Positions 13,693 to 54,093 are shown, counted from the first letter of the stretch. The stretch is DNA of 64,000 bases from Candidatus Acidulodesulfobacterium ferriphilum (GCA_004195035.1 SGBD01000001.1:664368-728367); one strand, 5' to 3'. Numbers and translations: made by a program. Notes: generated from the letters alone by a model not told the origin.

Positions 13693-13986
13693 TTAACAAC
13701 ATTCCTTGGACAACGAGCTGTCGCAGTCGCACGAAGGCGCGCCGCCGCTTATCATCCCGTTTATTATGCCCGATGCGCATCCTACTCCGGAATTTACGGA
13801 AATTGCCCCATATTTGCAGTTAAGGGCGCAGGCGCCGCATTCCATACATAAGTCCTTATCGGCAACGCCGACTTTTTTATTTTTTAGTCGAAATACTCCA
13901 TGGGGACATACGTCGATGCATACAAAACAGTTAGTGCATTTTTCGGCAAAAAATTTAAGGCTCGATACATTCTTAAGATATTTCAT
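13693..13986 (-). CDS. hgcB: HgcB, ferredoxin partner of mercury methylation
   Basis: 97 residues. Two [4Fe-4S] motifs occur: C17-x2-C20-x2-C23-x3-CP and C47MECGACALNC57. The latter is the signature second cluster of HgcB. Cys70 in GVGCASGIING and the terminal vicinal pair Cys96-Cys97 match the extra cysteines known to matter in HgcB. Its ATG overlaps the hgcA stop by 4 bp (ATGA), so the two are translationally coupled. HgcB reduces the HgcA corrinoid so that it can accept a methyl group; it may also hand Hg(II) to HgcA. The C-terminal CDCDS region adds Cys86 and Cys88. Confidence 0.96.
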   Translation of the reverse strand: MKYLKNVSSLKFFAEKCTNCFVCIDVCPHGVFRLKNKKVGVADKDLCMECGACALNCKYGAISVNSGVGCASGIINGMISGGAPSCDCDSSLSKECC

Positions 13987-15111: not shown

Positions 15112-15537
15112 TTAAATAATAGTTTTTAGAAAATCTTTTACTCTAATTTCAATTTCATCCCTGATTTTTCTAAAAAAATCAAGTTTTTCTTCTTCGCTTC
15201 CCTCGACATTCGCAGGATCCAATAAATCCCAGTGAAGATTTTTAGTTTTTGCCCCTACATACGGACAGTTATCTTTAGCATCTCCGCACAAAGTAATTAT
15301 ATAATCGGCATTTGTTAAATCTATATCGTCCAAAGATTTTGATTTATATTCGGTTAAGTCGATGCCTTTTTCAGCCATAACCTTTACAGTTAATGGATTT
15401 ACCGGCTTGGGGGATACCCCTGCGCTCAAAATTATCAAATTTTTATCTTTGTAAATCTTTTCCTTTAAATCTCTGGTAAATCCTTCTGCCATTTGACTTC
15501 TTGCAGAGTTTCCCGCGCATAAAAATATGATTTTCAT
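15112..15537 (-). CDS. arsC: Arsenate reductase, thioredoxin-coupled type
   Basis: 141 residues of the low-molecular-weight phosphatase fold. The P-loop is Cys7-AGNSAR, and the redox relay cysteines are Cys84 and Cys91 (ITLCGDAKDNCP). The DP of the family (LLDPANVEGSEEEK) is present. The second P-loop cysteine of S. aureus ArsC is Ala here. It reduces arsenate to arsenite, which ArsAB can export. It starts 11 bp after arsB with a strong GGGGGG site and is the last ars gene before hgcA. Confidence 0.96.
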   Translation of the reverse strand: MKIIFLCAGNSARSQMAEGFTRDLKEKIYKDKNLIILSAGVSPKPVNPLTVKVMAEKGIDLTEYKSKSLDDIDLTNADYIITLCGDAKDNCPYVGAKTKNLHWDLLDPANVEGSEEEKLDFFRKIRDEIEIRVKDFLKTII

Positions 15538-15548
15538 TGCCCCCCCAT

Positions 15549-16868: not shown

Positions 16869-16925
16869 AGTATATATGCACCTTTATTGTAAAGATTAAA
16901 ATAAATATTACGGAAATATATTTAG

Positions 16926-24133: not shown

Positions 24134-25834
24134 TTATGCGCAGCAGCTGAGTTTGCTGACATCTTTGGTAAATGTTTGAGCAGCCAGCTTAAGTCCTTCC
24201 GCCATAGTAGGATAAACGCCTATTTCTTCGCCGATTTGCTGAATTGTATAACTATTTTGAATATAAACGCTTGCCTGCTGGATTGTTTCCGACGAGTTGT
24301 GCGCTAACATATGAATTCCGATAACCTTGTTTGTTTTTTTATCCGCTATCATCTTTATCAGCCCCTCCGTTTTAAAAATAGCCTGGGCTTTAGGAACGAA
24401 TTCGACCGGAAAAACAACCTTAATTACATCATAGCCTTCTTTTATAGCCGCTTCCTCCGTTAATCCGACGGAAGATACTTCAGGGTCGGTAAATGTCGTA
24501 TGCGCAACGGAAGAGTAGTCCGCTTTTATATGTTTGCCGTGAAGCATGTTACCTGCGGCTATCTTGCCGTCATACGCGGCAGTCGTAACTAACCTCATTA
24601 AACCGGTAACATCGCCGCAAGCATAAATATCGGGATTCATAGTCTTAAGTTCGCCGTCCACTTTAATAAAACCCTGTTTATAGGTTTCGACGCCGACAGC
24701 CTCCAAATTTAAATCTTCGGTATTCCCTACAACGCCGGTTGCCATTAAAAATTCATCGAACTTGACCGTTTTCAGCCCTTCTCCCGTTTCAATTTCGGCA
24801 TATTTTTTGCCGTCCTCTTTATAAAGGCGTTTTATAGAGGAGTTCAGTAAAAACTCTATTCCTTCGTTTTTTAAGATTTGCAAAAGCGACTCCGAGATTT
24901 CGGGCTCTTCATTAAGCAAAATCCTGCCTGAACGCCCTACCACTACCACCTTTGAACCGAATCTTCTAAACATCTGGGCAAATTCAAGCGATACTGCCCT
25001 TGTGCCCAATATTAAAAGTGTTTCCGGCAGGTAATTTAAGTTTAATATCTCTTCGTTTGTAATATAGCCGGCCTCCCCCAATCCTTTAATATCTATTATC
25101 TGGTTCGTCGAACCCGTCGCAATAATAAATTTATCCGAGGTAATTTTATAAGGGTCTATGTTTTTATCGTTCGGGATAACCTCAATCGAATTTTTTGACG
25201 CAAAACTTCCTCTGCCTTCTATAAATGTAATATTGCCGTAACCCCTTAATACATTATAATATTTCATTTCCCTAAGGCTGTTAAGAAGTTCGGTTTTCAC
25301 TTTTATGAGTTCTTTTATGTCAATCCGCGCCTGCTTTGTTTCTATGCCTTTAAATTTATTACTCAAAGGTTCGTAGTATATTCTAGCCGCTTCCAAAAGA
25401 TGTTTTGAAGGAACACAGCCCCTGTTAAGGCATGTGCCGCCTATAACCCAGTTTTCGATAACGCACACTTTTTTGCCTTCGTCGGCAAATTTAATAGCCG
25501 AGGAAAAAGCGGCAGAACCGCTGCCTATTATTATTAAATCGTAATCATAATTATGGTTTTTGCCGGTCTGACTATTATTGTCCGCCTCCGTCTTTTTTTC
25601 TTCGGCTTCCGAAACATAGGCGGTTTCGTGAGATAAGGGGGTATAGCCGGCATTTTCTATATTTTTCTTTATATCTTCAACTTTTATGTCGTCTAATGCC
25701 AAAATCGTGCTTTCTTTTTTCGATAAAGAAGTATCTACTTTAATAACCCCCTTTACTCTATTTATCGCTTTATTTACAGATGTAACGCAGTGTTCGCAGG
25801 TCATACCCTCAACATTTATTTTTATTTTCTTCAT
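24134..25834 (-). CDS. merA: Mercuric reductase with N-terminal HMA domain
   Basis: 566 residues. The N-terminal heavy-metal domain has GMTCEHC (Cys13, Cys16). The FAD-disulfide core has IIIGSGSAAFSSA and the redox pair Cys135/Cys140 in GGTCLNRGCVPSK. The C terminus ends in SCCA, with the vicinal Cys564-Cys565 that distinguish MerA from lipoamide dehydrogenase. It reduces Hg(II) to volatile Hg(0) with NADPH in the cytoplasm. It lies 103 bp after merT. A remnant of a second merA copy is at 27485-27580. Confidence 0.97.
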   Translation of the reverse strand: MKKIKINVEGMTCEHCVTSVNKAINRVKGVIKVDTSLSKKESTILALDDIKVEDIKKNIENAGYTPLSHETAYVSEAEEKKTEADNNSQTGKNHNYDYDLIIIGSGSAAFSSAIKFADEGKKVCVIENWVIGGTCLNRGCVPSKHLLEAARIYYEPLSNKFKGIETKQARIDIKELIKVKTELLNSLREMKYYNVLRGYGNITFIEGRGSFASKNSIEVIPNDKNIDPYKITSDKFIIATGSTNQIIDIKGLGEAGYITNEEILNLNYLPETLLILGTRAVSLEFAQMFRRFGSKVVVVGRSGRILLNEEPEISESLLQILKNEGIEFLLNSSIKRLYKEDGKKYAEIETGEGLKTVKFDEFLMATGVVGNTEDLNLEAVGVETYKQGFIKVDGELKTMNPDIYACGDVTGLMRLVTTAAYDGKIAAGNMLHGKHIKADYSSVAHTTFTDPEVSSVGLTEEAAIKEGYDVIKVVFPVEFVPKAQAIFKTEGLIKMIADKKTNKVIGIHMLAHNSSETIQQASVYIQNSYTIQQIGEEIGVYPTMAEGLKLAAQTFTKDVSKLSCCA

Positions 25835-25937
25835 GATTTTCTCCTGTATTTATAATGTTCGCAATAAATGTTGCGAATATATGTTATTAATAATAAACAT
25901 TTACGCAAAGACAGGCAGGCAGTTTGTCTTCCCCGCC

Positions 25938-26396
25938 TTACAGTTGCGGCCACGCCATAAAAATCTGGCCGGTATCGACATATAAATATATGAATATCAA
26001 GGCCGTAATCAATATAGACGAGAAAAAAACTATCTTGCTAAAATTAAGCGAACCAGCCGATGCCTCGCAATCGCATGATTCTCCGCCTGCGCTTTCGCCG
26101 ATATTAGATGCACTTTTTTGTAAAGATATTTTCGGCATTATATAAATAAAGAAAAAGGATAAAAGGATGCCGACAATATTTAATATCAAGAAATAATTTC
26201 TGTAAGGCGAGATAACTCCCAGAAAAGAGGCGGTGGAACCTAAAACTCCCCCTGTGCTTGCACCCACTCCCAGTATGCTGAAAACTAACGGTCCCCAGCA
26301 GCAAGCCCCTCCCAAAATTGCGAACAGGGCTGCGGAACCGGAAGTTACACTGGAGCTTGCGCCGGAAATTGCGTTAGACATATTTTTTGTTTTCAT
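25938..26396 (-). CDS. merT: Mercuric ion transporter MerT
   Basis: 152 residues with four likely membrane segments (about 22-42, 46-62, 66-88 and 122-142). The first carries the vicinal Cys32-Cys33 in GGACCWGPLVFS, the MerT signature. A cytoplasmic loop pair occurs at Cys108 and Cys110 (ESCDCE). It moves Hg(II) inward for reduction by MerA. The extra membrane segment relative to the three-segment MerT of Tn21 resembles MerT variants with four segments. It lies between the merP-like gene and merA. Confidence 0.9.
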   Translation of the reverse strand: MKTKNMSNAISGASSSVTSGSAALFAILGGACCWGPLVFSILGVGASTGGVLGSTASFLGVISPYRNYFLILNIVGILLSFFFIYIMPKISLQKSASNIGESAGGESCDCEASAGSLNFSKIVFFSSILITALIFIYLYVDTGQIFMAWPQL

Positions 26397-26474
26397 AATA
26401 CTTTACCTCTTTGCTTATTTACATAATTAATAATTAATAAATAATTAAATTAATCGATATATTATACCGTTAAT

Positions 26475-26861
26475 TTATTTTATATAATGGGCGGTATAAT
26501 GAAACATGGCGTTCGATGCGCCGTCTATTGCCTTTATAAAGGTTTCGGGCGGAATGTTTCCGTGAAACTTTACTATTGCCTCCTGATTTTCCATATCAAC
26601 TTTTGCCGAAACAACCCCTTTTATCTTATATAACGCATTCTGAATAGAGGTTATGCAAAAAGTATCCCCGCACACAAGCCCGTAAACTTTAAATTTATCC
26701 GTATTAAGAGCGTTTGTCTTCGTAAAAACGGCAGGCGTAAGCGCCCCCGAAACGGCGTTTTTTTGATAGACGAATGCCGATACCGACGATACCTGCAAAG
26801 CTAAAATCAAAACAGCGAAAATACCCGCAATAACATTTTTCCAATTTAAATAACTTTTCAT
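26475..26861 (-). CDS. MerP-like periplasmic metal-binding protein
   Basis: About 128 residues. An N-terminal signal or anchor segment (residues 8-29, ending VSSVSAF) is followed by an HMA-like domain from about residue 57 (VYGLVCGDTFC, ALYKIKGVVSAKVDMEN). The usual C-x2-C is replaced by Cys64-x4-Cys69, so the binding loop is two residues longer. Position first in the mer operon supports a MerP role, bringing Hg(II) to MerT. The ATG at 26861 has a GGAGG site 5 nt upstream and is preferred to the codon at 26873. Confidence 0.78.
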   Translation of the reverse strand: MKSYLNWKNVIAGIFAVLILALQVSSVSAFVYQKNAVSGALTPAVFTKTNALNTDKFKVYGLVCGDTFCITSIQNALYKIKGVVSAKVDMENQEAIVKFHGNIPPETFIKAIDGASNAMFHYTAHYIK

Positions 26862-26923
26862 AAAAACCTCCAAATCGTTTATTTTTTATAATTTTTCTTT
26901 TTTATTCCAAACTCAATATTTAT

Positions 26924-26955
26924 ATTTTACACCTTATACTTTGGTATAATGTCAA
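26924..26955 (-). promoter_or_regulatory. mer operon promoter with MerR-type operator
   Basis: On the minus strand, TTGACA (26950-26955) and TAAAAT (26924-26929) are 20 bp apart, a stretched spacer of the MerR-activated kind. The spacer holds the dyad TTATAC-CAAA-GTATAA (26934-26949), centred between the two elements. It drives the merP-like, merT and merA genes. Confidence 0.8.
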
Positions 26956-27027
26956 GCTTTTTTTAATATAAATATATGATAAAATAGATGTTTAAAATAT
27001 TAATAGGATTTACAATAAAAAAATGTC

Positions 27028-27059
27028 TTGATATTATGTTTAACTATAAGGTTTATAAT
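27028..27059 (+). promoter_or_regulatory. Promoter of merR, a second MerR-type operator
   Basis: On the plus strand, TTGATA (27028-27033) and TATAAT (27054-27059) are again 20 bp apart. Aligned over 32 bp with the mer promoter, 24 positions match, including TATAAGGT next to the -10. The dyad is weaker than in the mer promoter. This suggests that MerR also acts on its own promoter. Confidence 0.65.
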
Positions 27060-27086
27060 TGTATTATGAAGGGAAGATAAAAAAAT

Positions 27087-27482
27087 ATGACTATCGGACA
27101 GTTAGCCAAAACGGTTAATTTAAACACCCAAACCATAAGGTATTACGAGCGCATAGGGTTAATTAATAAACCCGATACAAATGAAGCGGGATACAGGATA
27201 TATCCGGAAAAGGCTGCCGATGTTTTGCGTTTTATAAAACACGCAAAGGATATCGGTTTTTCCTTAAAGCAGATTTCCGAACTTTTTTCATTAGATAACA
27301 ATAAATATAACACCTGCTCGAATGTGAAAAAGTTGGCCGAAGAAAAAGTCTATGAAATAGACAAGAAACTTAATTCTTTAAATCTGATGCGCAAAGAGCT
27401 TTTAAATCTTATATCGTTATGCGAAGAAAAAACCGATAACCAAAGGTGCCCGATTTTAGATATTTTAAAGTTCGAAAGTTAG
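27087..27482 (+). CDS. merR: Mercury-responsive regulator MerR
   Basis: 131 residues. The helix-turn-helix TIGQLAKTVNLNTQTIRYYE and the wing NEAGYRIYP are those of MerR. Mercury-binding cysteines are Cys77 (before the dimer helix), Cys112 and Cys121, with the diagnostic C-x8-C spacing of Hg(II)-sensing MerR. It is divergent from the mer operon and would activate it through the stretched promoter at 26924-26955. It ends 2 bp before a merA fragment. Confidence 0.96.
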   Translation: MTIGQLAKTVNLNTQTIRYYERIGLINKPDTNEAGYRIYPEKAADVLRFIKHAKDIGFSLKQISELFSLDNNKYNTCSNVKKLAEEKVYEIDKKLNSLNLMRKELLNLISLCEEKTDNQRCPILDILKFES

Positions 27483-36730: not shown

Positions 36731-37255
36731 TTAAGGCGAAGTTTTTAACATACCCATAAAGCTTAAAAACCCGGATATTATTGCTTCGGGTTCGGGCGGA
36801 CATCCCTTTATGTGCATTGCAACCTTTAAATATTTTGAAACGGGGCCGCATACGGCATAGGAATCTTTAAAAGGCCCGCCTGTTTCGGGGCAATCGCCCG
36901 CCGTAATAACGAATTTAGGTTCAGGAACAAACTCAAAAGTCTTTAAGAGCGGATTAAGCATGTTCCTTGTCAAACATCCCGTTATAATAATGACATCCGC
37001 ATGCTTTGGGGAAGCGACAAATTTTATGCCGAATCTTTCTAAATCGTAATAAGGATTGGAAAGAGCGGCAAGCTCGGTTTCGCAGGCGTTGCAAGAACCC
37101 GTATCGACAAGCCTTACAAATAAACTCCTGCCGAATATCCTGTCAATCGAGCGTTTTAATTCATCCCCTTTTCCTTTGATTGAAACAGAATCAATATTGC
37201 CGCTAACAATATCCTGCGTCTTATTTTTAAATAATAATTTGATTAAAAAGCTCAT
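36731..37255 (-). CDS. Hydrogenase-4/complex-I-like small subunit (HyfI/NuoB type)
   Basis: 174 residues. It binds one [4Fe-4S] cluster through Cys in GSCNACETEL (C-x2-C), AGDCPETGG and KGCPPEPE. These match the NuoB or HyfI proximal cluster, so electron transfer is retained. It is the last gene of a six-gene complex and follows the large subunit after 168 bp that hold a strong hairpin. It forms the peripheral module with the large subunit at 37424-38929. Confidence 0.9.
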   Translation of the reverse strand: MSFLIKLLFKNKTQDIVSGNIDSVSIKGKGDELKRSIDRIFGRSLFVRLVDTGSCNACETELAALSNPYYDLERFGIKFVASPKHADVIIITGCLTRNMLNPLLKTFEFVPEPKFVITAGDCPETGGPFKDSYAVCGPVSKYLKVAMHIKGCPPEPEAIISGFLSFMGMLKTSP

Positions 37256-37327
37256 ATATTACCACCCGTTATAAATGTAGAAATTTCTTATATAGATTAC
37301 CGCTTCGCTCTCGACTTCAGTATCTTC

Positions 37328-37364
37328 GGCACGCAAGGGCGGCGTGGGCCCTTTAACGCGTGCC
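37328..37364. other. Hairpin between large and small subunit genes
   Basis: GGCACGC/GCGTGCC (7 bp) and AAGGGC/GCCCTT (6 bp) form a GC-rich stem with a 4-nt bulge. It lies in the 168-bp gap ahead of the small-subunit gene and could affect its expression or be a REP-like insertion. Confidence 0.55.
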
Positions 37365-37423
37365 TTCGATATGTGAAGTTTCTTTAAAACTTTCCTGCCT
37401 CCTTCGGAATGACAAACACTGGA

Positions 37424-38929
37424 TTACATATCGTTCCCTGAATAAGATAAATTCAGGCTTTTGTTTATTAACGGAAAATCCGCAATTATATTGCCCAATA
37501 CGCCGTACTGAATGGAAGGCCATATCCTGAAAGACGGGTCTATATATTTAAGCCTGAAAATTTTTCCGCTGTCATCCGCCATTATGTAAAAAAACGCATT
37601 GCCCCTCGGTGTTTCCGCATTGCCTACGGCATATTTATATGCCTCTGCCCTGTTTCCGCAGGGCGATATAATGCCTCCCTCCGGCAAGTTAAACAAAAGC
37701 CCGCCCACGATTTTTACGGAAAGCAGAATTTCTTTAATCCTCAAAGCCGTTCTTGCAAAAACATCCCCGCTCTCGAGCAAAACAGGTTTTAGGTTAAACT
37801 TCTCGTATATAAGATAGGGAAATTCCACTCTGGAATCTCTCGGCAGTCCCGATGCCCGCGCGCTTATGCCGCATAACGAAAGCTCTTCCGCCGTCTTTTT
37901 GTTAATTTTTCCCGTAAATTCCAGCCTGTCTAAAACAGTCGATGAATTTAAAATAAATGCTTCACACTCTTTTATTGCCTTTTCGACCTTTTTAATAATA
38001 TTATCTATCGTAAATAGCTTAGAAGAATCAAAATCTACGCTCACGCCGCCGGGTACAAGCGCGTTAAACATAAACCTGTGTCCGGTTAAACTTTTGTTGA
38101 GCCTCATTAATTCTTCCTGCAAAGCAAACAGGTTTTGCGCGGGCAATGCAAAACCTATATCCATAAAAATCCATGCTATGTCCCTGACATAGTTCCAAAT
38201 ACGCTCGAGTTCGGCAAGTACTACCCTGATATGTTTTGCTCTTTCGGAAATCGCTGCATCCAAAAGATTTTCGACTGCTTCAAGATAGCTTACGGCTATA
38301 TTTACATTGTTATCGCCTGAAACCCGGGAAATCAAATTTAACGCTTCGTTAAAATCCTTTCCCTCGCAAATTTTTTCTATTCCTTTGTGTTTCCAGAAGT
38401 GCCTTATCTCAAGCTGTAAAACAGGCTCTCCAGCCAGCGAAAACCTAAAATGCCCTGGTTCTATAATGCCGGCATGCACCGGGCCGACAAGAACCTCAAA
38501 AATTCCCTCTCCCGAAACCTCTTTATACTTATAGTCACCGTATTTTTTAAATTCGGGAATTGCGTTGTTATAATCCTTTCTTAAAGGATGGACGGAAAAA
38601 TCCCAATTTTCGGGATATAGCATCAGTGGTCTTAAATCGGGATGTCCAAGGGGTGTAAGTCCAAATAAATCATTGATTTCCCTTTCATACATCTTGGCGG
38701 CGGGACAAATTTTAGAAACAGATTGAAAGTTTTCATCCACAGGAATGGAATATTCACCTATAATATTTTTGCCCCCGAAAAAATACCTTATGTTAAATTT
38801 TGAATTTATACTTCTCTCGTCATTTGCAACGATGCCCAGCAAATATTTTCCGGACTCTTTAATATTATTAGCCGATTTTATAAAATCGCTTGATGTGGTA
38901 ATATGCTTATCTACTATAATTTTATTCAT
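37424..38929 (-). CDS. Hydrogenase-4-like large subunit lacking the Ni-Fe ligands
   Basis: 501 residues, a HycE/HyfG-type fusion of a 30-kDa domain (about 1-130) and a 49-kDa/large-subunit domain (about 145-501). In hydrogenase the first pair is RVCGIC; here it is RVSGDN, with Ser204 and Asn207. The second pair DPCxxC becomes NLSYSG, with Ser495 and Gly498, and the protein ends three residues later. All four metal-binding cysteines are missing, so it cannot be a [NiFe]-hydrogenase. It matches the energy-converting hydrogenase related (Ehr) class. The gene overlaps the upstream stop by one base (TAATG). Confidence 0.92.
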   Translation of the reverse strand: MNKIIVDKHITTSSDFIKSANNIKESGKYLLGIVANDERSINSKFNIRYFFGGKNIIGEYSIPVDENFQSVSKICPAAKMYEREINDLFGLTPLGHPDLRPLMLYPENWDFSVHPLRKDYNNAIPEFKKYGDYKYKEVSGEGIFEVLVGPVHAGIIEPGHFRFSLAGEPVLQLEIRHFWKHKGIEKICEGKDFNEALNLISRVSGDNNVNIAVSYLEAVENLLDAAISERAKHIRVVLAELERIWNYVRDIAWIFMDIGFALPAQNLFALQEELMRLNKSLTGHRFMFNALVPGGVSVDFDSSKLFTIDNIIKKVEKAIKECEAFILNSSTVLDRLEFTGKINKKTAEELSLCGISARASGLPRDSRVEFPYLIYEKFNLKPVLLESGDVFARTALRIKEILLSVKIVGGLLFNLPEGGIISPCGNRAEAYKYAVGNAETPRGNAFFYIMADDSGKIFRLKYIDPSFRIWPSIQYGVLGNIIADFPLINKSLNLSYSGNDM

Positions 38930-40443
38930 TAAAAATTTATCTTTCCTCCAAATTCGGCCGATGCCGATTTTACGATATGTAAAAACTGGGATGGTATATA
39001 AAATAACAATATCGAAGAAATCAGCAAAAGAATTAAAGGGGCATACAGCATAAACGGATGGATCCCTTTTTCTCCTTTATCTTGATTGTCTTTATTTGTC
39101 CCTCTATTAGCCCTGTTTTCATTTTGCTGCCCATTTTCGCCGCCTTTAACGCCTATACCTATATACATTTTAAGAATTTTACTAAAAAGTCCTGCAAAAA
39201 TAAAAATCAATAACAAGAAAACTAAAAATCCAAACCAGATATTGGTTTTAAATACGCCGAACATAATATAAATTTCTCCCAGAAACATTGCAAAGGGGGG
39301 CATTCCGCTAATTCCCATCACCCCAAAAAGAAGCATAAGCCCCGTAATCGGAAAACGCTTGGATAAACTTCTTATTTTATCGATTTTTCTTTCATGGGTA
39401 ACCGCAAGAATATTACCCGAAGATAAAAATAAGGCTCCCTTATTTAAAGCATGAAATAATATCTGAAAAAGGCTCCCTATTACGGCAATTCCGCCAATAC
39501 CAAAACCTAACGCAATAAGACCCATATTTTCCATAGAGGAAAACGCGAAAAGGCGTTTATAATCCTTTTGCTTTATTATTGACAACGCGGAAACAAAAAT
39601 CGTGAGAAAACCAAAACCTATCAAAAAATATCTCGGATAATATATTTCTGCCGAAACATTAATTTGGTAAAATCTTAAAATGCCCAATAGCGCCGTGTTA
39701 AGTAGAACCCCCGATAATAAAGCGCTAACCGGACTCGGACCCTGCGAATGGGCATCCGGAAGCCAATTATGCATAGGCGCAAAACCCACCTTCGTTCCAA
39801 ACCCGACAAGGGCAAGAATAAACGCAAGCATAAGAAAGTTTTTGTCTAATTCCGAACCCGCCTGTATAATATTAATAAAGGATAAAGATTTCATGCTTTC
39901 GCCGTAAATCTGCGAAGTCGTGAAATATAAAATAACGATGGCAAAAAGCCCTATTGCTATGCCGACCGAACACATAATTACATACTTCCATGTTGCCTCA
40001 AAAGATTCTTTTGTCCTGTTGAAGGAAACCAACAAAGCTGTAGCCAAGGTAGTCGCCTCAAGCCCCGTCCAGTAAATGCCGAGGTTATTGGACATTATCG
40101 AAACCATCATGCTAAAAACGAATAAATTTTTCCAAAAATAGTAAAATTTAAATTTTCTTTTCGACAATCCGTGTTTTATTTCCGTCCTCACATATCCAAA
40201 CGAATAAAAAGCGACAAATAATTCAAGGGTTGAAACGGTAATAAGTATTACCAGATTGATATAATCGACAAAGAAAAGTCCTCCGAAAAATACGGAGATA
40301 GCATGAAAAGATAAAGAAATTGCGACAACCGTTAAAAAAACTAATGTAGAAATTATCAGCTGTAAATAAGACATTAATAAAACATCCGTAAAAACGGAAA
40401 AAATTAAGGCAACCGCCGGAAGTATCAATACTAATTCATACAT
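38929..40443 (-). CDS. Antiporter-like membrane subunit (HyfF/NuoN type)
   Basis: 504 residues with about 14 membrane segments. It contains the proton-pumping helices of the NuoN/MrpD family, including GFGTKVGFAPMHNWLPDAHSQ with its Lys and His, and a broken-helix region. It is a proton- or sodium-translocating subunit of the complex. A polar, Asn/Lys-rich loop (about 440-470) near the C terminus is unusual. It is directly coupled to the large subunit. Confidence 0.93.
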   Translation of the reverse strand: MYELVLILPAVALIFSVFTDVLLMSYLQLIISTLVFLTVVAISLSFHAISVFFGGLFFVDYINLVILITVSTLELFVAFYSFGYVRTEIKHGLSKRKFKFYYFWKNLFVFSMMVSIMSNNLGIYWTGLEATTLATALLVSFNRTKESFEATWKYVIMCSVGIAIGLFAIVILYFTTSQIYGESMKSLSFINIIQAGSELDKNFLMLAFILALVGFGTKVGFAPMHNWLPDAHSQGPSPVSALLSGVLLNTALLGILRFYQINVSAEIYYPRYFLIGFGFLTIFVSALSIIKQKDYKRLFAFSSMENMGLIALGFGIGGIAVIGSLFQILFHALNKGALFLSSGNILAVTHERKIDKIRSLSKRFPITGLMLLFGVMGISGMPPFAMFLGEIYIMFGVFKTNIWFGFLVFLLLIFIFAGLFSKILKMYIGIGVKGGENGQQNENRANRGTNKDNQDKGEKGIHPFMLYAPLILLLISSILLFYIPSQFLHIVKSASAEFGGKINF

Positions 40444-40505
40444 TATATCGAGTCCTTTAATAATTTAATAATATAACCTTAAATAAAGTTTATTTAAATT
40501 TATAT

Positions 40506-41123
40506 TCATACGGCGGCATTTCTTTTCAGGTTTAGTATAAGGATAGATAATATGAGTATGCCGACAAAAAGATCGAAAAGCACGCCCAACTCAACTAAAA
40601 GGGGCATACCGTGGGTTATACTATTAGCCGCTAAAAAAATAGCGTTATCTATGGTTAAAAATCCGATAATTTGGGAGAACAAAGTTTTTCTTGTAATCAT
40701 AAGCATAGCTCCAATCAAAAATGTAGCAAGGGAAATCGTGAAAACAAAAGCCCCGAATGTTATGCCTGCCGTAACAATTTTTTGAGCTATCAAATTGGAA
40801 AGCAGGGTTAAAGAACCTGCGAAAACAACGGCCTCCGGTATGCCTATATACATATCTATTTCTTTATCCATTTTAACCTTCTTAAGCGTTTTAAATAAAA
40901 AATAGGGAATTAGAATAACCTTAAAGATTACCGTAATAACAAAAGACCCGTATAAATTTATAGAATTAAAATGAACGGCGCCCATTAAAATATAAAACGC
41001 CAGCATAAGTGATTGAAACGAATAAAGCTTTATTGCAAATTTAATAAAAGGGGAGCCGACATTTAAAACCACTGAAACTAATATTAAAATGATAAATAGC
41101 TCGGCTATTTTTTCCATTAACAT
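40506..41123 (-). CDS. Hydrogenase-4 component E-like membrane protein
   Basis: 205 residues with six or seven membrane segments. The arrangement FSQIIGFLTIDNAIFLAANSI and HGMPLLVELGVLFDLFVG is the conserved part of HyfE, a MrpC/NuoK-like subunit. It is part of the membrane arm. Two ATG codons (41123 and 41117) are possible. Confidence 0.9.
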   Translation of the reverse strand: MLMEKIAELFIILILVSVVLNVGSPFIKFAIKLYSFQSLMLAFYILMGAVHFNSINLYGSFVITVIFKVILIPYFLFKTLKKVKMDKEIDMYIGIPEAVVFAGSLTLLSNLIAQKIVTAGITFGAFVFTISLATFLIGAMLMITRKTLFSQIIGFLTIDNAIFLAANSITHGMPLLVELGVLFDLFVGILILSILILNLKRNAAV

Positions 41124-41149
41124 TTTGAAATTCCTTAAATTTTCAAATT

Positions 41150-42130
41150 TTAAAACCCTCTGATAGATAAAATCATCGCTATTAAAGACAAAATAAAAGA
41201 CACGGAAAGTATGTTCGGCACCCTGAATATCCTCATTTTAGGGTTAAAGATTTCAACGCCTGCAATAAAAACACAGAGAATAATCATCTTTAAAAAATAT
41301 ACCGCCAAAGCTAACGGAATCTGGTAGATATGCGCGGCCGTATATGGAAATAAGATAAGGGACATTACGGTTAAAAAGACGGTAAGTTTCAAATAACTGC
41401 CGTATTCAAATAAACCGAGATGTTTTCCGCTAGCCTCCAAAATATTTGCTTCATGAAACATCGTAAGTTCAAGATGTGTCTCGGGATTATCAATCGGGAT
41501 CCTTGCGTTTTCGGATATGCTTACGATAAAGAGCGAAATAAACAGTAAAAAAGGAATAGCAATAGATATAGCATGGAGATGAACGCCCGATAAAAAGGCA
41601 TTGGCGGCCCCTTTTTGAATAAAATAAAATATATCGGTTATTCTTCCCTTTTTAGTATAAATGGCAAGGGATATAAAAACAAATATCAAAGACGGCTCGG
41701 AAAGAACGGTTAAAAACAACTCCCTGCTTGCCCCGAGTCCTCCGAAAGCGCTGCCCTGATCCATTGCATAAAGGGTCATAAAGAAGGTTGACAGGGCAAG
41801 GGTATAAGCAATCAGTATTACATCGGAAGATATGCCGAGCAAAGAATACCTGTAAAATGCGGGCAGCATTAATAATATTACAAGATATGAAACAAAAACG
41901 ATATAAGGGGTTATATTGGATATAAAAGTCGCATCTTTGGATAAAACGATCTCCTTTTTTAATAACTTATTAAAATTTATATAAAACTGAAAAATGCCTA
42001 TTCCTTTTTGCCCTCTTGCCCGCTGTTTTAATTTATGAATAAAACCCGCAAAAAAAGGCGCAAGAAAGACTATTATAAAAAATTGAATGATCCCTATTGT
42101 CAAATGTTGAATATTATAATTATAAGTCAT
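41150..42130 (-). CDS. HyfC/NuoH-like membrane subunit
   Basis: About 326 residues with eight membrane segments. HKLKQRARGQKGIGIFQFY, then AMDQGSAFGGLGASRELFL and NPETHLELTMFHEANILEAS, are hallmarks of NuoH/HycD. It links the peripheral module to the membrane arm. The frame is open to 42193, but those extra codons lie in a hairpin (42171-42217) and are not hydrophobic, so I prefer the ATG at 42130. Confidence 0.9.
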   Translation of the reverse strand: MTYNYNIQHLTIGIIQFFIIVFLAPFFAGFIHKLKQRARGQKGIGIFQFYINFNKLLKKEIVLSKDATFISNITPYIVFVSYLVILLMLPAFYRYSLLGISSDVILIAYTLALSTFFMTLYAMDQGSAFGGLGASRELFLTVLSEPSLIFVFISLAIYTKKGRITDIFYFIQKGAANAFLSGVHLHAISIAIPFLLFISLFIVSISENARIPIDNPETHLELTMFHEANILEASGKHLGLFEYGSYLKLTVFLTVMSLILFPYTAAHIYQIPLALAVYFLKMIILCVFIAGVEIFNPKMRIFRVPNILSVSFILSLIAMILSIRGF

Positions 42131-42170
42131 ATCGTTTATATGTACCCCGACTTCGACATAATTTTTTGTC

Positions 42171-42217
42171 ATTCCCGTCTGCATCAAAGGCATGCTTTGA
42201 TAAATGCAGACGGGAAT
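42171..42217. other. Hairpin between hyfB-like and hyfC-like genes
   Basis: A 14-bp perfect stem (42171-42184 with 42204-42217) is extended by a 5-bp inner stem around a GCATG loop. Its start GTCATTCCCG resembles the arms of the dispersed repeats. It is inside the operon and could act as a processing or REP-like site. Confidence 0.65.
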
Positions 42218-42242
42218 ATCCGCAAAAGCGGTAATCCATTTA

Positions 42243-44159
42243 TTACCTTATTATAAATATGTATATAATGAAGCAAACTATTAACGATAAAAATAAATAC
42301 CCTAAAGAAACATTTATATTTTCCGAATTGGTTAATATGTTAAAAATATCGGATAATTTTAAATATAATTTTTCTATGGGAATATAAAAGTATTTTTCGA
42401 AAATATCGTTAATTTCTTCGGTATAAACGGATTTAGACCTGAAATATTTTTTTACGTCCTTTTCAAAGTTAACCTCGGAAACGGAGGAATAAAAAGAGGA
42501 AAAAACCTTCATTATGCTTGAGGAAAATCCGCTGCCGGAATACTGAGCTTTTGAATTTTTTTCATCGAGCCCGCATGACCATGTTTCAAATATCCTTTTT
42601 TTATCGGTAGAGAATATCCTGAGATAGAAAAATAAAATTAATAAAATTAAAACAAAGGTAATTGCAACTAAACCGGGCATGTATAAGGTGTAGGATTGTG
42701 CATGCGTAAGGCGCACGGCGGAAAACGGACTTGCACCGGCGGTCCCGCCCGTTAAATAAAATATAATCATATTCAAAGCCGATATTATTTGATAAGGATA
42801 AATACCGATAAAAACGCATAACAAAACAGGAATTGCCATTCCTATTCTTTCGACAGCATGGGGCTCTGCGGCATTTTCGGCGTGAACCGTTCTGGGCTTT
42901 CCCAGAAAGGTAACGCCGAATAGTTTTGTAAAAGCGGCTACCGCCGCAGCCCCGCTCAGCGACAAAAGGGCAATGGCTATAACGGAAAAATACACCATAT
43001 ATAAATTCCCCGTAAAGACGGAGCCGATTAAAGAAACATACAAATACCACTCGCTTAAGAAACCGTTTAGCGGCGGGAGCGCGGAAATTGACATCACCCC
43101 TATAAGAAATAAAACTGATAACTGCCTCATTTTTTTAGAAAGTCCGCCCAGTTTTTCCATATTTCTAGTATGGGTATATTTGTCAATTAGTCCAGAACCC
43201 ATAAAAAGCGAACTCTTGCTTAACCCATGGTTTATTATATGAAGCAAAACGGCTAACATTGCAAGATGTTCTAAAGACTTAAAATTTTCAATCTTTGCCC
43301 AGTAAGATATGCCTATGCCCATAAAAATTATGCCCATGTTTTCGATTGTTGAAAAGGCCAGCAGTTTTTTTATATCCTTTTGAACCATTGCGTACATTAT
43401 GCCTAAAAGCGCCGATAAAGCCCCTAAAATAAGCAATGCTATGCCCAAAAAAGAGCCGCTGCCGGAGCTAAAAATAAATAAAAATTTTAAAATACCGTAT
43501 ATCGCCATATTGACCATTATGCCTGACATAATAGCGGAAATGTTTGCCGGGGCAACCGGATGGGCATAGGGAAGCCATGTATGAAAGGGCATAATGCCGG
43601 CTTTAATGGAAAATCCGAGTATTGCGATTGCTATTATAATAACCCCGGCAGCACCTTTATAGTTGTCGAAAGACAACGAGGAGGTTTTTAAATACAGCAT
43701 GATAAAACTTGCCGTTATGAGAACGGTTCCGATATGCGTCATTAAAAAATATAAAAAGCCCGCCCTTCTCGATTCCTCGCTTTCCTCGTAAATAACCAAT
43801 AAAAAGGAAAATATCGACATTAATTCCCAAAATATCAAAAATGTCAGCATATCGTTGCTTATAACAAGAATTATCATGGATATTATAAAGAAAAAAGAAT
43901 AGAAAAAGAGGGACGGTTTTTTATCGTATTTCTCCCCGTATTTAATCGAAAAAATCGAGATAAATATGGAAATAGACGATATGAATATAACAAAAAACAC
44001 GGAAAGGGGGTCAAATTTGAACGAAAAGCTTAGGAATGCTGATTTTATAATAAATTCTTGCTTAAAATCATAAAAACTTAAGGCTGTAAAAAAAGCAGGG
44101 ATTAAAATGGACAGGCATCCGAAGAAATATCTATAAATATCGTTATATTTAGCATTCAT
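42243..44159 (-). CDS. HyfB/NuoL-like antiporter subunit
   Basis: 638 residues with about 14 or more membrane segments. GFSIKAGIMPFHTWLPYAHP with Lys and His, and the following antiporter core, mark the NuoL/MrpA/HyfB family. A C-terminal extension with lateral-helix character is present. It is the first gene of the operon and probably a proton-translocating unit. A GGGGGAGG lies about 24 nt upstream of the ATG, which is distant. Confidence 0.93.
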   Translation of the reverse strand: MNAKYNDIYRYFFGCLSILIPAFFTALSFYDFKQEFIIKSAFLSFSFKFDPLSVFFVIFISSISIFISIFSIKYGEKYDKKPSLFFYSFFFIISMIILVISNDMLTFLIFWELMSIFSFLLVIYEESEESRRAGFLYFLMTHIGTVLITASFIMLYLKTSSLSFDNYKGAAGVIIIAIAILGFSIKAGIMPFHTWLPYAHPVAPANISAIMSGIMVNMAIYGILKFLFIFSSGSGSFLGIALLILGALSALLGIMYAMVQKDIKKLLAFSTIENMGIIFMGIGISYWAKIENFKSLEHLAMLAVLLHIINHGLSKSSLFMGSGLIDKYTHTRNMEKLGGLSKKMRQLSVLFLIGVMSISALPPLNGFLSEWYLYVSLIGSVFTGNLYMVYFSVIAIALLSLSGAAAVAAFTKLFGVTFLGKPRTVHAENAAEPHAVERIGMAIPVLLCVFIGIYPYQIISALNMIIFYLTGGTAGASPFSAVRLTHAQSYTLYMPGLVAITFVLILLILFFYLRIFSTDKKRIFETWSCGLDEKNSKAQYSGSGFSSSIMKVFSSFYSSVSEVNFEKDVKKYFRSKSVYTEEINDIFEKYFYIPIEKLYLKLSDIFNILTNSENINVSLGYLFLSLIVCFIIYIFIIR

Positions 44160-48706: not shown

Positions 48707-51700
48707 ATGCAGGTTTCAAGGCGCTCGTTCATTAAAGGGGTATTGATAGCCTCAATAATCGGGGAAACCGATTTATTCGGCCTGTCCATGGATAAAGCCA
48801 TGGCGGAATCAAGAACATTAAAAATAGAAAAGGCAAAAGAAACTAAAAGCATCTGTCCGTTTTGCGCAGTAGGATGCAGTATGATAGCATATTCTACGGG
48901 AGACGGTTCCGTAAACGCAAGGCCGTCTATTATGCATATAGAAGGCGATCCCGACAGCCCGATAAATCAGGGAAGGCTCTGCGCGAAAGGCTCCGCGACA
49001 ATGCAGATAACGGTAAATAAAAACAGGGTTAAAGCCCCTCTTTACAGAAGAAAGGGTTCAAAAGAGTGGGAAGAGGTTTCATGGGATTTTGCATTGGATA
49101 GAATTGCGTTGCTTATTAAAGAAGAAAGGGATAAGAATTTTATAACAAAAGACAATGAAGGCTACGCTTTAAATCAGCTTCCGACTATCGCCGCGGTAGG
49201 AGGTTCCCCCTGCGCAAACGAAAACAACTACCTTTTTGTAAAAGCTATGAGGTCGCTTGGTCTCGTCTATATAGACGGACAGGCAAGGATATGACACGCT
49301 CCCACAGTGGTCAGTTTGGCCGCTTCCTTTGGTCGTGGGGCAATGACAAATCATTGGATAGATCTGAAAAACTCGGATGTCGTGATGGTAATGGGCGCAA
49401 ACCCTGCTGAAAATCATCCTGTCGGCTTCAGATGGGCGCTAAAAGCGCGCGAGAAAAAAAATGCAAAAATAGTAGTAATAGATCCCCGTTTAACCCGAAC
49501 CGCGGCGGTTGCCGATATTTTTATCCCTTTGAGGTCCGGAACCGACATTGCGTTTTTAGGCTGGCTCATCAATTACACCGTCTCCAACAATTTATATTTT
49601 AAAGAATATGTCGTAAATTATACCAACGCCCCGTTCCTTGTTAAAAGTAATTTCGGATTCAGGGACGGCCTTTTCAGCGGCTACATTGAAAACGAACATA
49701 AATACGACACCGAAAGCTGGGGCTTCCAGCTTGATACAAAGGGCAATGTTCTGAAAGATATTTCGCTTGAAAATCCGCAATCCGTTTTTCAAATAGTCAA
49801 AAAGCATTATTCAAGATACACCGCCGAAACGGTTTCTAAAATAACAGGAGTATCCGAAGAAAAGCTAATCGAAGCCGCGCATGTTATATGTTCCACCGGC
49901 AATCCAAATACGGTCGGAACCGTAATGTATGCAGTCGGATGGACTCAGCATACCGTCGGCTCCCAAAATATAAGGGCGGCATCAATGCTTCAGCTTCTTT
50001 TAGGCAATATCGGAAGACCGGGGGGCGGCGTTAACGCCTTAAGAGGTCATGCGAATGTGCAGGGGCAGACGGATCACGGTCTTGTTGCCACAACTCTGCC
50101 CGGCTATCTTAAAATGCCTGCCAAAACGCAAATAGACCTAAAAACATATTTAAAAGAAAATACCCCTTCTAAAATAGATACGCATGCCGTAAACTACTGG
50201 TCTAATACTTCCAAATTTCTCGTCAGCCTGTTAAAGGCATGGTGGGGGGGCAATGCTACGAAAGAAAACGATTTTAATTATGAATACCTCCCGAAGCTTG
50301 ACAGCAATACGACATGGATGTTCGCTTTTAACGCGATGTTTTACGGAAAGATAAACGGGCTTATAGATTTCGGAATGAATCCGGCGTGCGTGGGTCCAAA
50401 TTCCGATAAAATGCTTGCTTCGCTCGGAAGGCTGAAGTGGCTTGTCGTCATAGACCCTTTTGCCCATGAAACCGCATGTTTCTGGAAAAGGCCGGGGAAT
50501 GATTATGATTCCAAGGGGATAGCCGCTAATTCCGCAGATATCGATACGGAGGTTTTCATGCTTCCCTCTTCCGACTGGATAGAGGAGGATGGTTCCTTTA
50601 CAAATAGCGGCAGGTGGGTACAATGGAAATATAAATCTTACGACCCCGCGCATAACGCAAAATCCGATACATGGATAATATCTAATATTTTCTTGAAAAT
50701 CAGGAAACTGTACGAGAAAAGCGGAGGGGTATTCCCTGAACCAATTACAAAACTATCGTGGAATTATGAGGATATATATTCCCCTACAAAGGAGGAAATA
50801 GCAAAAGAGATTAACGGAAGAGACCTAAAAACGGGGAAGCTGCTTCCTTCATTTGTCGTTTTAAAAGACGACGGCAGCACTTCCAGCGGAAACTGGATAT
50901 ATTCAGGGTCGTTTACGGAAGCTGGAAATATGATGAAAAGGAAAAAACTGACGGATAATACCAAAATGGGCATGTTCCATGAGTGGTCATGGAGCTGGCC
51001 GGTCAACAGGAGGATACTGTACAACAGGGCATCCGCCGACATTAAGGGAAATCCATGGAATGAAAAACTTCGCGCTTTATGGTGGAACGGCAAGGAATGG
51101 GTGGGCGATGTGCCTGATTATCCGCCGACAGCCCCGCCTTCAAAAGAAATCGGTCCTTTTATTATGACTAACAGCGGTTATGCCAATATATTTTCCAGCG
51201 CCCTTGTCGATGGTCCTATTGCCGAACATTATGAACCTATAGAATCGCCCACGGTTAACATTCTTCATCCGAATGTTTCGATAAACCCGGCGGTAAAATT
51301 TTTTAAAGACAAGCTCGACATTATCGGAAAATCCTCCAAATATCCTTATGTATGCACGACTTACAGGGTTGCCGAACATGAGCATTACCTTACCCGATGG
51401 GTTCCGTATCTCGTCGAAATAATGCCGGATTTTTTCGTCGAGCTTCCCCATGAACTTGCAAAAGAAAAAGATATTCAAAACGGGGACAAGGTTAAGGTAT
51501 CTTCGGCAAGAGGCGAGGTCGTCGGCGTCGCGGTCGTTACAAAAAGAATCGAACCGCTTATCGTCAACGGTAAAAAGGTATGGCAGATAGGCGTTCCGCT
51601 TCACTGGGGGTACGAAGGATTGGTTAAGGGTCCTCTTGCAAACTTGCTTACTCTTACTGTCGGAGACCCGAATGCCTTCACGCCGGAATACAAAACATTC

Positions 51701-51724
51701 CTTGTTAATATTTCTAAACCGTAA
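48707..51724 (+). CDS. fdnG: Formate dehydrogenase alpha subunit, selenoprotein
   Basis: 1005 residues when the TGA at 49292-49294 is read as selenocysteine (codon 196). Context around it, QARI-U-HAPTVVSLA, matches the Sec site of FdnG-type enzymes. A Tat signal (SRRSFIKG) marks export. The [4Fe-4S] motif CPFCAVGC and the Mo/W-bis-MGD domains follow. Downstream, FGRGAMTNHW and MGANPAENHP are typical. It oxidises formate in the periplasm. A GGAGGGG site precedes the ATG. The gene would look like two frames (195 and 805 codons) without Sec decoding. Confidence 0.95.
49292..49340 (+). promoter_or_regulatory. Selenocysteine UGA and bacterial SECIS-like hairpin
   Basis: TGA is at 49292-49294. After 12 nt, GTGGTC (49307-49312) pairs with GGCCGC (49318-49323) around the loop AGTTT; pairs include G-U wobble. 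CCCAC (49301-49305) and GTGGG (49335-49339) can extend the stem. The distance matches E. coli SECIS elements bound by SelB. Confidence 0.8.
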
Positions 51725-51736
51725 GGAGAGATTATC

Positions 51737-53212
51737 ATGATTAATAATAGTATAGCCATAAAAAACGCTTCGGCTGTTTCGTCAAATTCACCTGCTATAA
51801 GAACGGAAATGCCCGAATTAGTTAAGCTTATAGACCTCTCAAGATGCACCGGGTGCAAGGCTTGCGAGGTGGCGTGCAAGGAATGGAACAACCTGCCCCC
51901 GGATAAAACCGAAAACTTCGGAAGCATGCAGCTTCACCGCTCGCTTACTCCTACGACATGGACGATGGTATATTTTAACGAAGCCGTAATAGACGGAAAT
52001 GTCAAATACCTTATGAGAAAAAACGGATGCATGCATTGCGAAAATCCGGCCTGTCTTACCGCATGCCCTTCCCCTTATGCTATCGTTCAATATGAAAACG
52101 GCATAGTGGATTTCAATCAGGACAAATGCACCGGCTGCCAATTTTGCGTCTCGGCCTGCCCGTTCAATATTCCCCAATTTGACTCCGTATCCAATAGGGT
52201 ATATAAATGCACGCTTTGCATAGACAGAATAGACGCGGGGCTTCCCCCTTCGTGCGCCAAAGCCTGTCCTACTTCCGCTATAACATTTGGAGAAAAACAT
52301 AAGATATTGGACAACGCAAAGACGGAAATTAAAAAACTTGTAAAAAGAGGGTTTAAAAACGCAAAGCTATACAGCCCCAAAGGCGTCGGCGGAACCCATG
52401 TTATGACTATCCTTCCATACGGAAATAATACGGAAGATTACGAACTCCCAAAAAATCCCGAAGTTTCGCCGCTTACGACATTCACTAAGGGTCCGCTTGC
52501 GGTATTCGGAGGTTTATTTATGGGGCTGACCACTCTCGGTTCGTTTGCGCACCTCATAACCGCCGGACAGTCGAAAGCGCCGGAAGCTTTAGCCGCTAAA
52601 GAGGGCAAAGAGGAGGAAATAGACAGGCATAATCTTGCAACCAGAATTATTCACTGGACTGTGGCAATTTCCGCCGTTTTGCTCATTGTATCGGGGTTAT
52701 CCCTTTATTCCCCGAAACTTTTCTGGCTGTCAAATATCCTTGGCGGACCGCAGTCTTCCCGGTTCCTTCACCCGTGGATAGGGGTTATATTCCTTATATC
52801 GTTCGGCCTCCTTTTTATCAGATGGTTTAAGGATATGGCGATAAAGCCGTATGATATAGATTTCATTAAAAATATATATTCGTACTTGATTCATGACGAA
52901 AAAAATATCGTTAAATCGGATAAATTTAACGGCGGACAAAAGTTGGTCTTCTGGTGTTTTTCGGCGGGGCTCGCACTGCTTTTTATCTCGGGACTGTTTA
53001 TATGGTTTCCCGGTTTTTTCGGCTCCTTTGCGGCAAGATTCGGCCTTTTTCTTCACGAGTTGACGGCAATATTTTTTATAAGCGCGATAATAGCGCACTT
53101 TTATCTGAGCTTAATAGCCATCCCCGGTTCGCTCGCCGGCATGATTACGGGAAAAGTAAAATCGTCATGGGCAAGATTCCATCACGGATTATGGCTTAAC
53201 GGCAATAAATAA
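51737..53212 (+). CDS. Formate dehydrogenase beta-gamma fusion (FdnH-FdnI-like)
   Basis: 491 residues. The N-terminal ~245 form the Fe-S subunit: CTGCKACEVACKEW, CMHCENPACLTACP, CTGCQFCVSACPF and CTLCIDR...CAKACP give four [4Fe-4S] sites. One membrane segment (about 255-275) follows, as in FdnH. From about 300 to the end there are four membrane segments with His residues (IIHWT, FLHPWIG, LHELTA, AHFYL) of the cytochrome b556 subunit. In most bacteria these are two genes. It would carry electrons from formate to the quinone pool. It starts 12 bp after the alpha subunit. Confidence 0.93.
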   Translation: MINNSIAIKNASAVSSNSPAIRTEMPELVKLIDLSRCTGCKACEVACKEWNNLPPDKTENFGSMQLHRSLTPTTWTMVYFNEAVIDGNVKYLMRKNGCMHCENPACLTACPSPYAIVQYENGIVDFNQDKCTGCQFCVSACPFNIPQFDSVSNRVYKCTLCIDRIDAGLPPSCAKACPTSAITFGEKHKILDNAKTEIKKLVKRGFKNAKLYSPKGVGGTHVMTILPYGNNTEDYELPKNPEVSPLTTFTKGPLAVFGGLFMGLTTLGSFAHLITAGQSKAPEALAAKEGKEEEIDRHNLATRIIHWTVAISAVLLIVSGLSLYSPKLFWLSNILGGPQSSRFLHPWIGVIFLISFGLLFIRWFKDMAIKPYDIDFIKNIYSYLIHDEKNIVKSDKFNGGQKLVFWCFSAGLALLFISGLFIWFPGFFGSFAARFGLFLHELTAIFFISAIIAHFYLSLIAIPGSLAGMITGKVKSSWARFHHGLWLNGNK

Positions 53213-53226: not shown

Positions 53227-54093
53227 ATGGATAGTTTTGAGCAGGTAATAAAAAATATCGACCTTAAGTTATATGCTTTAGGCAAAAGAAAGGAGGCGGG
53301 GGCAGACCTTGAAGGCGTATCCGACATTTATAAAAATATCCTTATTTCGCAAAAAAACCTTGTTTCAAAAATTTTAAAGGAAAATATTAAAGATATTTAC
53401 AGCTTGCCTTTGCCTGTAAGGGGGAAAACTTTTGACCGCCCGCTTATCGGAAACATGAATGTTAATGTTGCCTGCATAGCAAATCTGTTTGATTTTTTTA
53501 TTAAAAACATTCCGTTGCATAGCATTTCATCCGGTTTAAATAATGATATAGAAAAATATGCGCGCAATTTTTTTAATGATAATTATGATTATTTGACACG
53601 CCTTAAATCGGACGAGATTATTTTATTTGAGGGATTTTTAAGACCATTTTTGGAGTCTATGGCTATATGTATGAAAAATAAAGATGGTCAGGGTCTCAGC
53701 GAATATAATTCCAATGATAACCTCGATAATTTTAGCAATACCTGCTCTTTTTGCGGCAGTGAGCCTTCTTACGGTTTTTTAAAATCCGATGATGAAACGC
53801 AAAATTATTTAATGCTTGAATGTTCAAAGTGCGGAAGCGCATGGCGATATTACAGGGTTCAGTGTGTTTTTTGCGGCGAGGAAGACCCCTCTAAGTTAGA
53901 AATTTTCAAATCCGATGAATACGGCAATGCCTGTCTGCAATACTGCAAGATATGCAAAAATTATTTTAAGATAATCGACCTTAGAAACGACCAGACTCTT
54001 ATACCCGAGATTGAGGATATTCTTACTATCCCTCTCGATATCTGGATGCATAAAAATATGCCCTTAGAAATTTCCGCAAATACGGTTGCGTAA
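53227..54093 (+). CDS. fdhE: Formate dehydrogenase accessory protein FdhE
   Basis: 288 residues. Three zinc or iron motifs of the rubredoxin type are present: CSFCGSEP, CSKCGSAWRYYRVQCVFCGEE and CKICKNYFK. This pattern defines FdhE, which is needed for maturation of Tat-exported formate dehydrogenases. It follows the beta-gamma gene by 14 bp with an AAGGAG site. The N-terminal ~150 residues are helical. Confidence 0.93.
   Translation: MDSFEQVIKNIDLKLYALGKRKEAGADLEGVSDIYKNILISQKNLVSKILKENIKDIYSLPLPVRGKTFDRPLIGNMNVNVACIANLFDFFIKNIPLHSISSGLNNDIEKYARNFFNDNYDYLTRLKSDEIILFEGFLRPFLESMAICMKNKDGQGLSEYNSNDNLDNFSNTCSFCGSEPSYGFLKSDDETQNYLMLECSKCGSAWRYYRVQCVFCGEEDPSKLEIFKSDEYGNACLQYCKICKNYFKIIDLRNDQTLIPEIEDILTIPLDIWMHKNMPLEISANTVA

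Follow-up and report, generated by a model that had tools for sequence, protein, structure and literature searches.

What a hydrogenase-4-like membrane complex does once every cysteine ligand of its nickel-iron center has been replaced is the question raised by a six-gene operon of Candidatus Acidulodesulfobacterium ferriphilum. The operon lies in the stretch of 64,000 nucleotides analyzed here (the window, from whose first letter all positions are counted), and ORF calling placed its genes on the minus strand in the order ehrB-C-E-F-L-S, between 36731 and 44159.

42243..44159, minus strand: ehrB, HyfB/NuoL-type antiporter-like proton-channel subunit, 638 aa (Pfam Proton_antipo_M/N)
41150..42193, minus strand: ehrC, HyfC/NuoH-type membrane anchor, 347 aa (Pfam NADHdh)
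40506..41123, minus strand: ehrE, HyfE-type membrane subunit, 205 aa (NCBIfam hydrogenase 4 membrane subunit model, E value of 2e-19, below cut-off)
38929..40443, minus strand: ehrF, HyfF-type antiporter-like subunit, 504 aa (Pfam Proton_antipo_M; hydrogenase 4 subunit F models, below cut-off)
37424..38929, minus strand: ehrL, large subunit with fused NuoC-like N terminus, 501 aa (Pfam Complex1_30kDa and Complex1_49kDa)
36731..37255, minus strand: ehrS, NuoB/HyfI-like small subunit, 174 aa (Pfam Oxidored_q6; nearest solved chain, 7z0s_G)

EhrL joins a NuoC-like part to a NuoD/HycE-like part. NCBIfam hydrogenase-4 models were the top matches for EhrB (the subunit B model), EhrE, and EhrF, all scoring under the equivalog cut-offs, and a Pfam search with EhrE returned zero matches. 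The ehr genes are under purifying selection, with dN/dS values of 0.03 to 0.20 for all six against genomes G002 and G016 (dS values for G016 being near saturation). The chromosomal slot of the operon, between pabBC and mnmG-mnmE-yidC-rnpA, is common to the genus of the window and its sister genus g6. The ehrL-ehrS spacer (37256-37423) measures 168 bp in the window and ∼25 to 45 bp in G002 and G016.

The first-pass annotation had placed Ser204, Asn207, Ser495, and Gly498 of EhrL at the positions of the four [NiFe] Cys ligands, and this was borne out by both sequence and fold upon comparison with E. coli HycE, the closest solved relative (7z0s_E; phmmer E value of 4.6e-60). phmmer paired EhrL RVSGDN with HycE RVCGIC and LSYSGND with PCYSCTD, and when EhrL was aligned by MAFFT, each of the four ligand columns was occupied by Cys in both HycE and HyfG. 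The AlphaFold model of EhrL (mean pLDDT, 90.8; pTM, 0.92) superposed on HycE over 494 residues at 1.9 Å, with a Z score of 46.8. The replacement residues are identical in near relatives, the C-terminal signature NLSYS/AGND occurs in all family relatives reaching that far, and the signature motifs of EhrL, VGPVHAGIIEPGHFRF and DFPLxNKSxNLSYxGNDL, are invariant across phyla. EhrL stops at its signature motif, without the C-terminal extension that is cleaved from hydrogenase precursors, and close Cys-bearing relatives stop there too. A second reading of the DNA did not restore the cysteines, and a sequencing or frame error was ruled out, as at least 10 close relatives carry the same residues. A chance C-terminal pairing, with DPSFRIW (residues 464 to 470) as the equivalent of DPCxxC, was rejected because HMMER, MAFFT, and the fold all put HycE DPCYSC on NLSYSG. 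Judged from sequence and predicted fold, EhrL would be incapable of holding a [NiFe] center; because such a center cannot be carried, the complex is predicted not to be a hydrogenase.

In complex I, His38 and Tyr87 of Nqo4 (49-kDa subunit) are quinone head-group ligands; both are absent from EhrL, with I156 at the His38 column and G205 at the Tyr87 column (as aligned, in a loop of low confidence in the model). As these ligands are not conserved, a quinone as acceptor is only a guess.

Ehr designates the energy-converting (Ech) hydrogenase-related complex (Coppi 2005 and Marreiros 2013, as cited in PMC4378227). Ehr complexes have been reported in Geobacter (GSU0739-0745; PMC7894505), Sulfobacillus (PMC4378227), comammox Nitrospira (PMC10284858), ammonia-oxidizing archaea (PMC10432482), and CPR (PMC7304191); they are spread over many bacterial and archaeal phyla. 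In the papers found, their function is given as unknown or no more than suspected, the suspicion being that a redox reaction is coupled to ion translocation. The operon is almost certainly a member of this known family and not a new kind. The Ehr-type assignment made in the first-pass annotation is supported by the missing [NiFe] ligands of the large subunit (in sequence and fold), by the synteny and order of the antiporter-like, NuoH-like, HyfE-like, large, and small subunit genes, by the signature motifs, and by phylogeny. A scan of public genome contigs with an EhrL alignment yielded at least 578 confirmed relatives, and 80 loci were sampled, from Nitrospirota, Rokubacteria, Acidobacteriota, Chloroflexota, CPR, Verrucomicrobiota, Pseudomonadota, Bacillota, and several archaea. 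These 80 loci repeatedly show the B-C-E-F-L-S set, with S leading in some lineages. The large subunit has none of the NiFe Cys at 66 of the 80 loci, all four at 13, and SCSC at 1 (L078).

Phylogeny of the large subunit, which had been proposed as a check, put the window in a clade of its family (starred in the tree) whose members are all Cys-less, and not among hydrogenases; the motif columns were omitted from this tree. EhrL of the window is 34 to 45% identical to Ehr outside its genus-level relatives, in a distinct lineage clade. Several independent Cys losses, as in the free quick tree, were not upheld when all Cys-less rows were forced into one clade, which gave a likelihood above that of the free tree (p-AU of 0.98; quick trees with an assumed root); a single origin of the Cys-less state is not rejected by these alignments.

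L078 (Desulfosporosinus sp. UBA8487), with Ser-Cys-Ser-Cys at the four NiFe Cys positions, is nested among Cys-bearing Bacillota enzymes and retains a ferredoxin-type small subunit; it possibly represents a recent partial Cys loss. The window genome has a second Cys-less complex-I-like cluster (L148:10256-17644; contig 1, ∼814 to 822 kb) in the order C-E-F-L-S-B, in which L has RISGLHA and S has an N-terminal ferredoxin domain. This cluster adjoins a NorB-like nitric-oxide-reductase gene and genes resembling cydAB, and G004 has a similar one (L163). In two genomes of genus g2, G004 (L138) and G017 (L141), ehrL is truncated after ...NKETVLDL, and a close ehrS homologue was sought in both and not found; the Ehr complex seems, from these sequences, to have been lost in this sublineage. 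Selenocysteine in g2 ehrL (a TGA in G004 and G017) was ruled out on the same two observations.

The window operon was compared with named systems. It shares with other Ehr a large subunit without CxxC motifs, the small, NuoH-like, HyfE-like, and antiporter-like subunits, and synteny; the Nitrospira, Nitrososphaerota, and CPR Ehr among the sampled loci have the motifs and gene order of the window. It differs from other Ehr in its distinct clade, in an Asn at the TM8 Lys position of EhrB, and in the FdsA/NuoEF link of the sister genus. E. coli formate hydrogenlyase (HycE; 7z0s) and hydrogenase-4 (Hyf) have the same subunit folds and the order B-C-E-F-G/L and are the best solved relatives of the L, S, and B subunits, whereas the window operon lacks the NiFe Cys, HyfA/HyfH, HyfD, and the C-terminal maturation peptide. 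Six-gene group 4 [NiFe] hydrogenases of Bacillota (e.g., L071, L077, L081, L085, and L100) have a near-identical module and the same C-terminal end point; unlike the window operon, they have all four Cys, and their small subunits are mostly ∼235 to 263 aa with ferredoxin motifs. The Q and P modules of complex I (NuoB, CD, H, and L/M/N) share the EhrL fold (Z score of ∼42), the FeS site, and the channel residues, but the window operon is without NuoE/F/G/I, including the NADH-oxidizing NuoE/F/G, and does not conserve the His38/Tyr87 quinone ligands. A separate complex I cluster is present in the window genome (L129). Mycobacterium tuberculosis Rv0082-Rv0087 is probably a similar hydrogenase-like set.

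The small-subunit [4Fe-4S] ligands, described earlier as intact, are so: EhrS C55, C58, C122, and C152 align with the four cysteines of HyfI/HycG, giving one [4Fe-4S] site without a ferredoxin domain. The pump subunits had likewise been called intact, and for the main channel residues this stands. EhrB retains E112, K186, K315, and E370, EhrF retains E129, K218, K335, and E390, and EhrC E166, D235, E238, E242, and E253 match the acidic residues of NuoH. The exception is the TM8 lysine of NuoM (K265), which is Asn in EhrB (N217) and EhrF (N249); HyfF has Asn there as well. In EhrB this exception is lineage specific, as the TM8 Lys is present in 33 of 34 other FeS-type EhrB proteins and Asn occurs in only two EhrB records among the sampled loci.

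Group 4 [NiFe] hydrogenases (Hyf/FHL) have four Cys ligands and a HyfH/NuoI-like or fused ferredoxin input. EhrL has none of the former, and HyfA/HyfH/NuoI-like genes were not found in the window operon, in agreement with the first-pass annotation. A ferredoxin input module is also absent from ∼52 of the 57 Cys-less loci with a small subunit (a few long Cys-rich small subunits being ambiguous); the exceptions have a ferredoxin-fused small subunit (L062, L072, and L091) or a separate HyfH-like gene (L057 and L065). Its absence is therefore the rule in Cys-less Ehr and is not peculiar to the window. Among the 13 Cys-bearing relatives, the small subunit has two ferredoxin motifs in 8 and one in 3, and L075 has a separate gene. 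In these sequences, members without the hydrogenase site have mostly lost the input wire as well.

Outside the window, the loss of redox cofactors extends to the small subunit. The EhrS cluster ligands are lost in 13 sampled loci, where CCCC is replaced by DCDD, TCDD, SEGD, DTDN, and similar sets and the core pump residues are kept. Nine of these loci are of CPR type (L044, L052 [partial sequence], L066, L079, L080, L082, L087, L089, and L101), and four are from archaea/Dehalococcoidales (L092, L093, L095, and L098); the EhrL signature loops are kept in both subclades. Five further genomes of one small phylum (L164 to L168) have the same DCDD/TCDD in EhrS, and distant NuoB-like paralogues in that phylum have Cys at the three testable positions. 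This repetition, together with the Cys of the paralogues, makes an assembly error unlikely. ATP synthase genes stand directly before the cofactor-free module on the same strand in L052, L087 (743-11422), and L101 and nearby on the other strand in L079. Large-subunit Cys loss in CPR has been described (PMC7304191); neither cofactor-free Ehr, nor small-subunit cluster loss, nor an association of Ehr with ATP synthase in CPR turned up in the papers searched. The loss of the small-subunit [4Fe-4S] ligands in two Ehr subclades is the most novel point of this analysis, and it lies outside the window.

The electron donor had been regarded as unknown. It is not wholly open, since genomes of g6 cluster an FdsA-type formate dehydrogenase and NuoE/F genes with the operon. 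Downstream on the ehr strand, g6 genomes encode a NuoE/F fusion and an FdsA-type formate dehydrogenase alpha subunit with a NuoG-like N terminus. The ehr-NuoE/F-FdsA cluster is present in seven g6 genomes (G008, G014, G016, G020, G023, G026, and G028), with gaps of ≤95 bp in G016, and a gene for a MopB oxidoreductase of ∼690 aa precedes the g6 ehr operon where the contig extends that far. FdsA/NuoEF linkage to ehr was not found in the window or in genus g2; in the window, the MopB, NuoE/F, and FdsA genes are gone from both ehr flanks. Its genome does encode, unlinked to ehr, a related FdsA (66% identity), NuoF (57%), NuoE, and MopB (70%), but this FdsA belongs to a sister subtype and not to the Ehr-linked subtype, which makes it a putative ortholog of the partner at most. 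No FDH or NuoF gene was found near ehr at the 80 public loci (flanks of up to 10 kb), where recurrent neighbors were mostly shadow ORFs. For Margulis- and Saganbacteria, fdhA together with nuoE/nuoF-like genes has been proposed as the Ehr partner set (PMC6349859). In Geobacter, every Ehr subunit reached a higher abundance with formate than under conditions containing hydrogen (PMC7894505). A formate/NADH module of the NuoE/F-FdsA type is the best donor candidate, put forward tentatively at a little under even confidence.

Formate dehydrogenase genes of another type lie beside the operon in the window:

48707..51724, plus strand: FDH-N alpha subunit, Sec containing (Tat motif RRSFIK; in-frame TGA; TIGR01553 above cut-off across one TGA)
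51737..53212, plus strand: fused FDH-N beta and gamma (b-type cytochrome) subunits
53227..54093, plus strand: FdhE-like FDH accessory protein (match under curated cut-offs)

This FDH-N was ruled out as a direct Ehr donor, since its Tat motif and family predict a periplasmic enzyme; being Sec dependent, Tat targeted, and of FDH-N type, it would reach Ehr only via the quinone pool. The window genome encodes HypD along with an ordinary [NiFe] hydrogenase on contig 2, and the Hyp genes adjoin this hydrogenase. Hyp maturation is thus available in this genome but, from its gene context, serves another enzyme, and G008 (100% complete) has Ehr and lacks HypD.

We consider the Ehr complex to be probably a redox-driven pump. 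The best explanation overall, a non-hydrogenase pump with an FeS center in EhrS, a docked NuoE/F-FdsA-type FDH as donor, and a non-H2 acceptor, is one that we hold to be evenly poised between right and wrong. Ehr would be an L-shaped relative of complex I and formate hydrogenlyase, with one N2-like [4Fe-4S] cluster in EhrS and an ion-pumping membrane arm formed by EhrB, EhrF, and EhrC. Because the HyfH/NuoI wire is missing, any redox enzyme feeding the complex would need to bind EhrS itself; a formate dehydrogenase of the cytosolic NuoE/F-FdsA type could do so, with formate or NADH as the donor. Electrons would then pass from the docked dehydrogenase through the EhrS cluster to an acceptor in the old [NiFe] cavity, which would lie between EhrL, EhrS, and EhrC and be lined by the invariant VGPVHAGIIEPGHFRF and NLSYxGNDL loops. 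The acceptor bound in this cavity may be a non-H2 one, possibly a quinone, and its reduction would drive ion pumping.

The complex might instead run in reverse, oxidizing quinol (fed, e.g., by periplasmic FDH-N or by sulfur or iron oxidation) while the proton-motive force pushes electrons via EhrS to a low-potential acceptor, such as NAD+ or CO2, the CO2 case being formate synthesis by FdsA. The intact pump arm is consistent with such operation, as are the periplasmic quinone-type FDH-N encoded ∼4.5 kb away (syntenic in G002), the acid, metal-rich sites from which related genomes appear to come, judging by isolate names, and the large pH gradient of an acidophile. However, residues of a quinone site were not identified, the FDH-N linkage occurs only in genus g1, and complex I of the same genome could do the same job; reverse operation is unlikely. 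A different objection, to electron transfer as the essential function, comes from some Ehr relatives in which even the FeS site is gone and the pump residues persist. The L/S arm could be a ligand- or conformation-gated regulator of the ion-translocating arm (Mrp-like exchange), with an FeS center that is structural or a remnant. The invariant E/K channel residues of the two subclades without NiFe and [4Fe-4S] ligands, the module directly after ATP synthase genes in three loci, and the scarcity of electron-input ferredoxins among Cys-less members all point this way. Retention of all four FeS cysteines in the window and in most Ehr members nevertheless argues for their use, and the FDH/NuoEF clustering in g6 argues for redox coupling, which leaves a non-redox role doubtful. 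That the conserved Ehr function requires no redox cofactor, so that Ehr, that of the window included, is a complex-I-shaped ion translocator driven by neither a hydrogenase nor an Fe-S electron path and the cluster of the window a lineage-specific formate/NADH coupling, strikes us as quite improbable.

Two further readings concern hydrogenase itself. The shared fold of EhrL and HycE and the Hyp genes of the window genome would suit a true hydrogenase with unusual ligands, but replacement of all four Cys is lineage wide, the Hyp genes have as their neighbor another [NiFe] hydrogenase of ordinary type, and the complete genome with Ehr and no HypD makes the idea harder still to sustain; we find it barely credible. 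Nor do we see appreciable likelihood that the operon is a decaying remnant of hydrogenase-4. The truncated ehrL and missing close ehrS homologue of G004 and G017 indicate that the complex is dispensable in places, but the window has six complete ORFs with low dN/dS, and the signature motifs are invariant across phyla.

For the preferred redox-driven pump, the g6 lineage offers a testable lead in the form of a candidate electron donor, FdsA/NuoEF, in the same gene cluster as ehr; proof of this donor would provide a substrate for an orphan ion pump of wide distribution. That the hydrogenase site and the ferredoxin input were lost in parallel, and the last FeS cluster after them in some lineages, illustrates one way of rewiring complex-I-like pumps. 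A specialist would turn to the FDH linkage of g6 and to the cofactor-free subclades; the window operon alone is of moderate interest.

The window also contains mercury and arsenic genes. A mercury-methylation pair, hgcA and hgcB, lies at 13693-15050 on the minus strand; HgcA has the motif INVWCAAGK, a CdhD domain, and a membrane tail, and HgcB is a ferredoxin of ∼97 aa. The window hgcA was matched in 11 of 30 family genomes, and in G016 hgcAB lies inside the Ehr-FDH cluster. hgcAB has been reported for lineage SZUA-79 (PMC9948709), and membership of the window in that lineage is a guess. Near hgcAB are a mer-like cluster (24134-27482), with an HMA-fused mercuric-reductase-like flavoprotein (Pfam) and putative MerT/MerP-like and MerR-like proteins, and ars-like genes (15112-18680) for putative ArsA, ArsB, and ArsC-like proteins.
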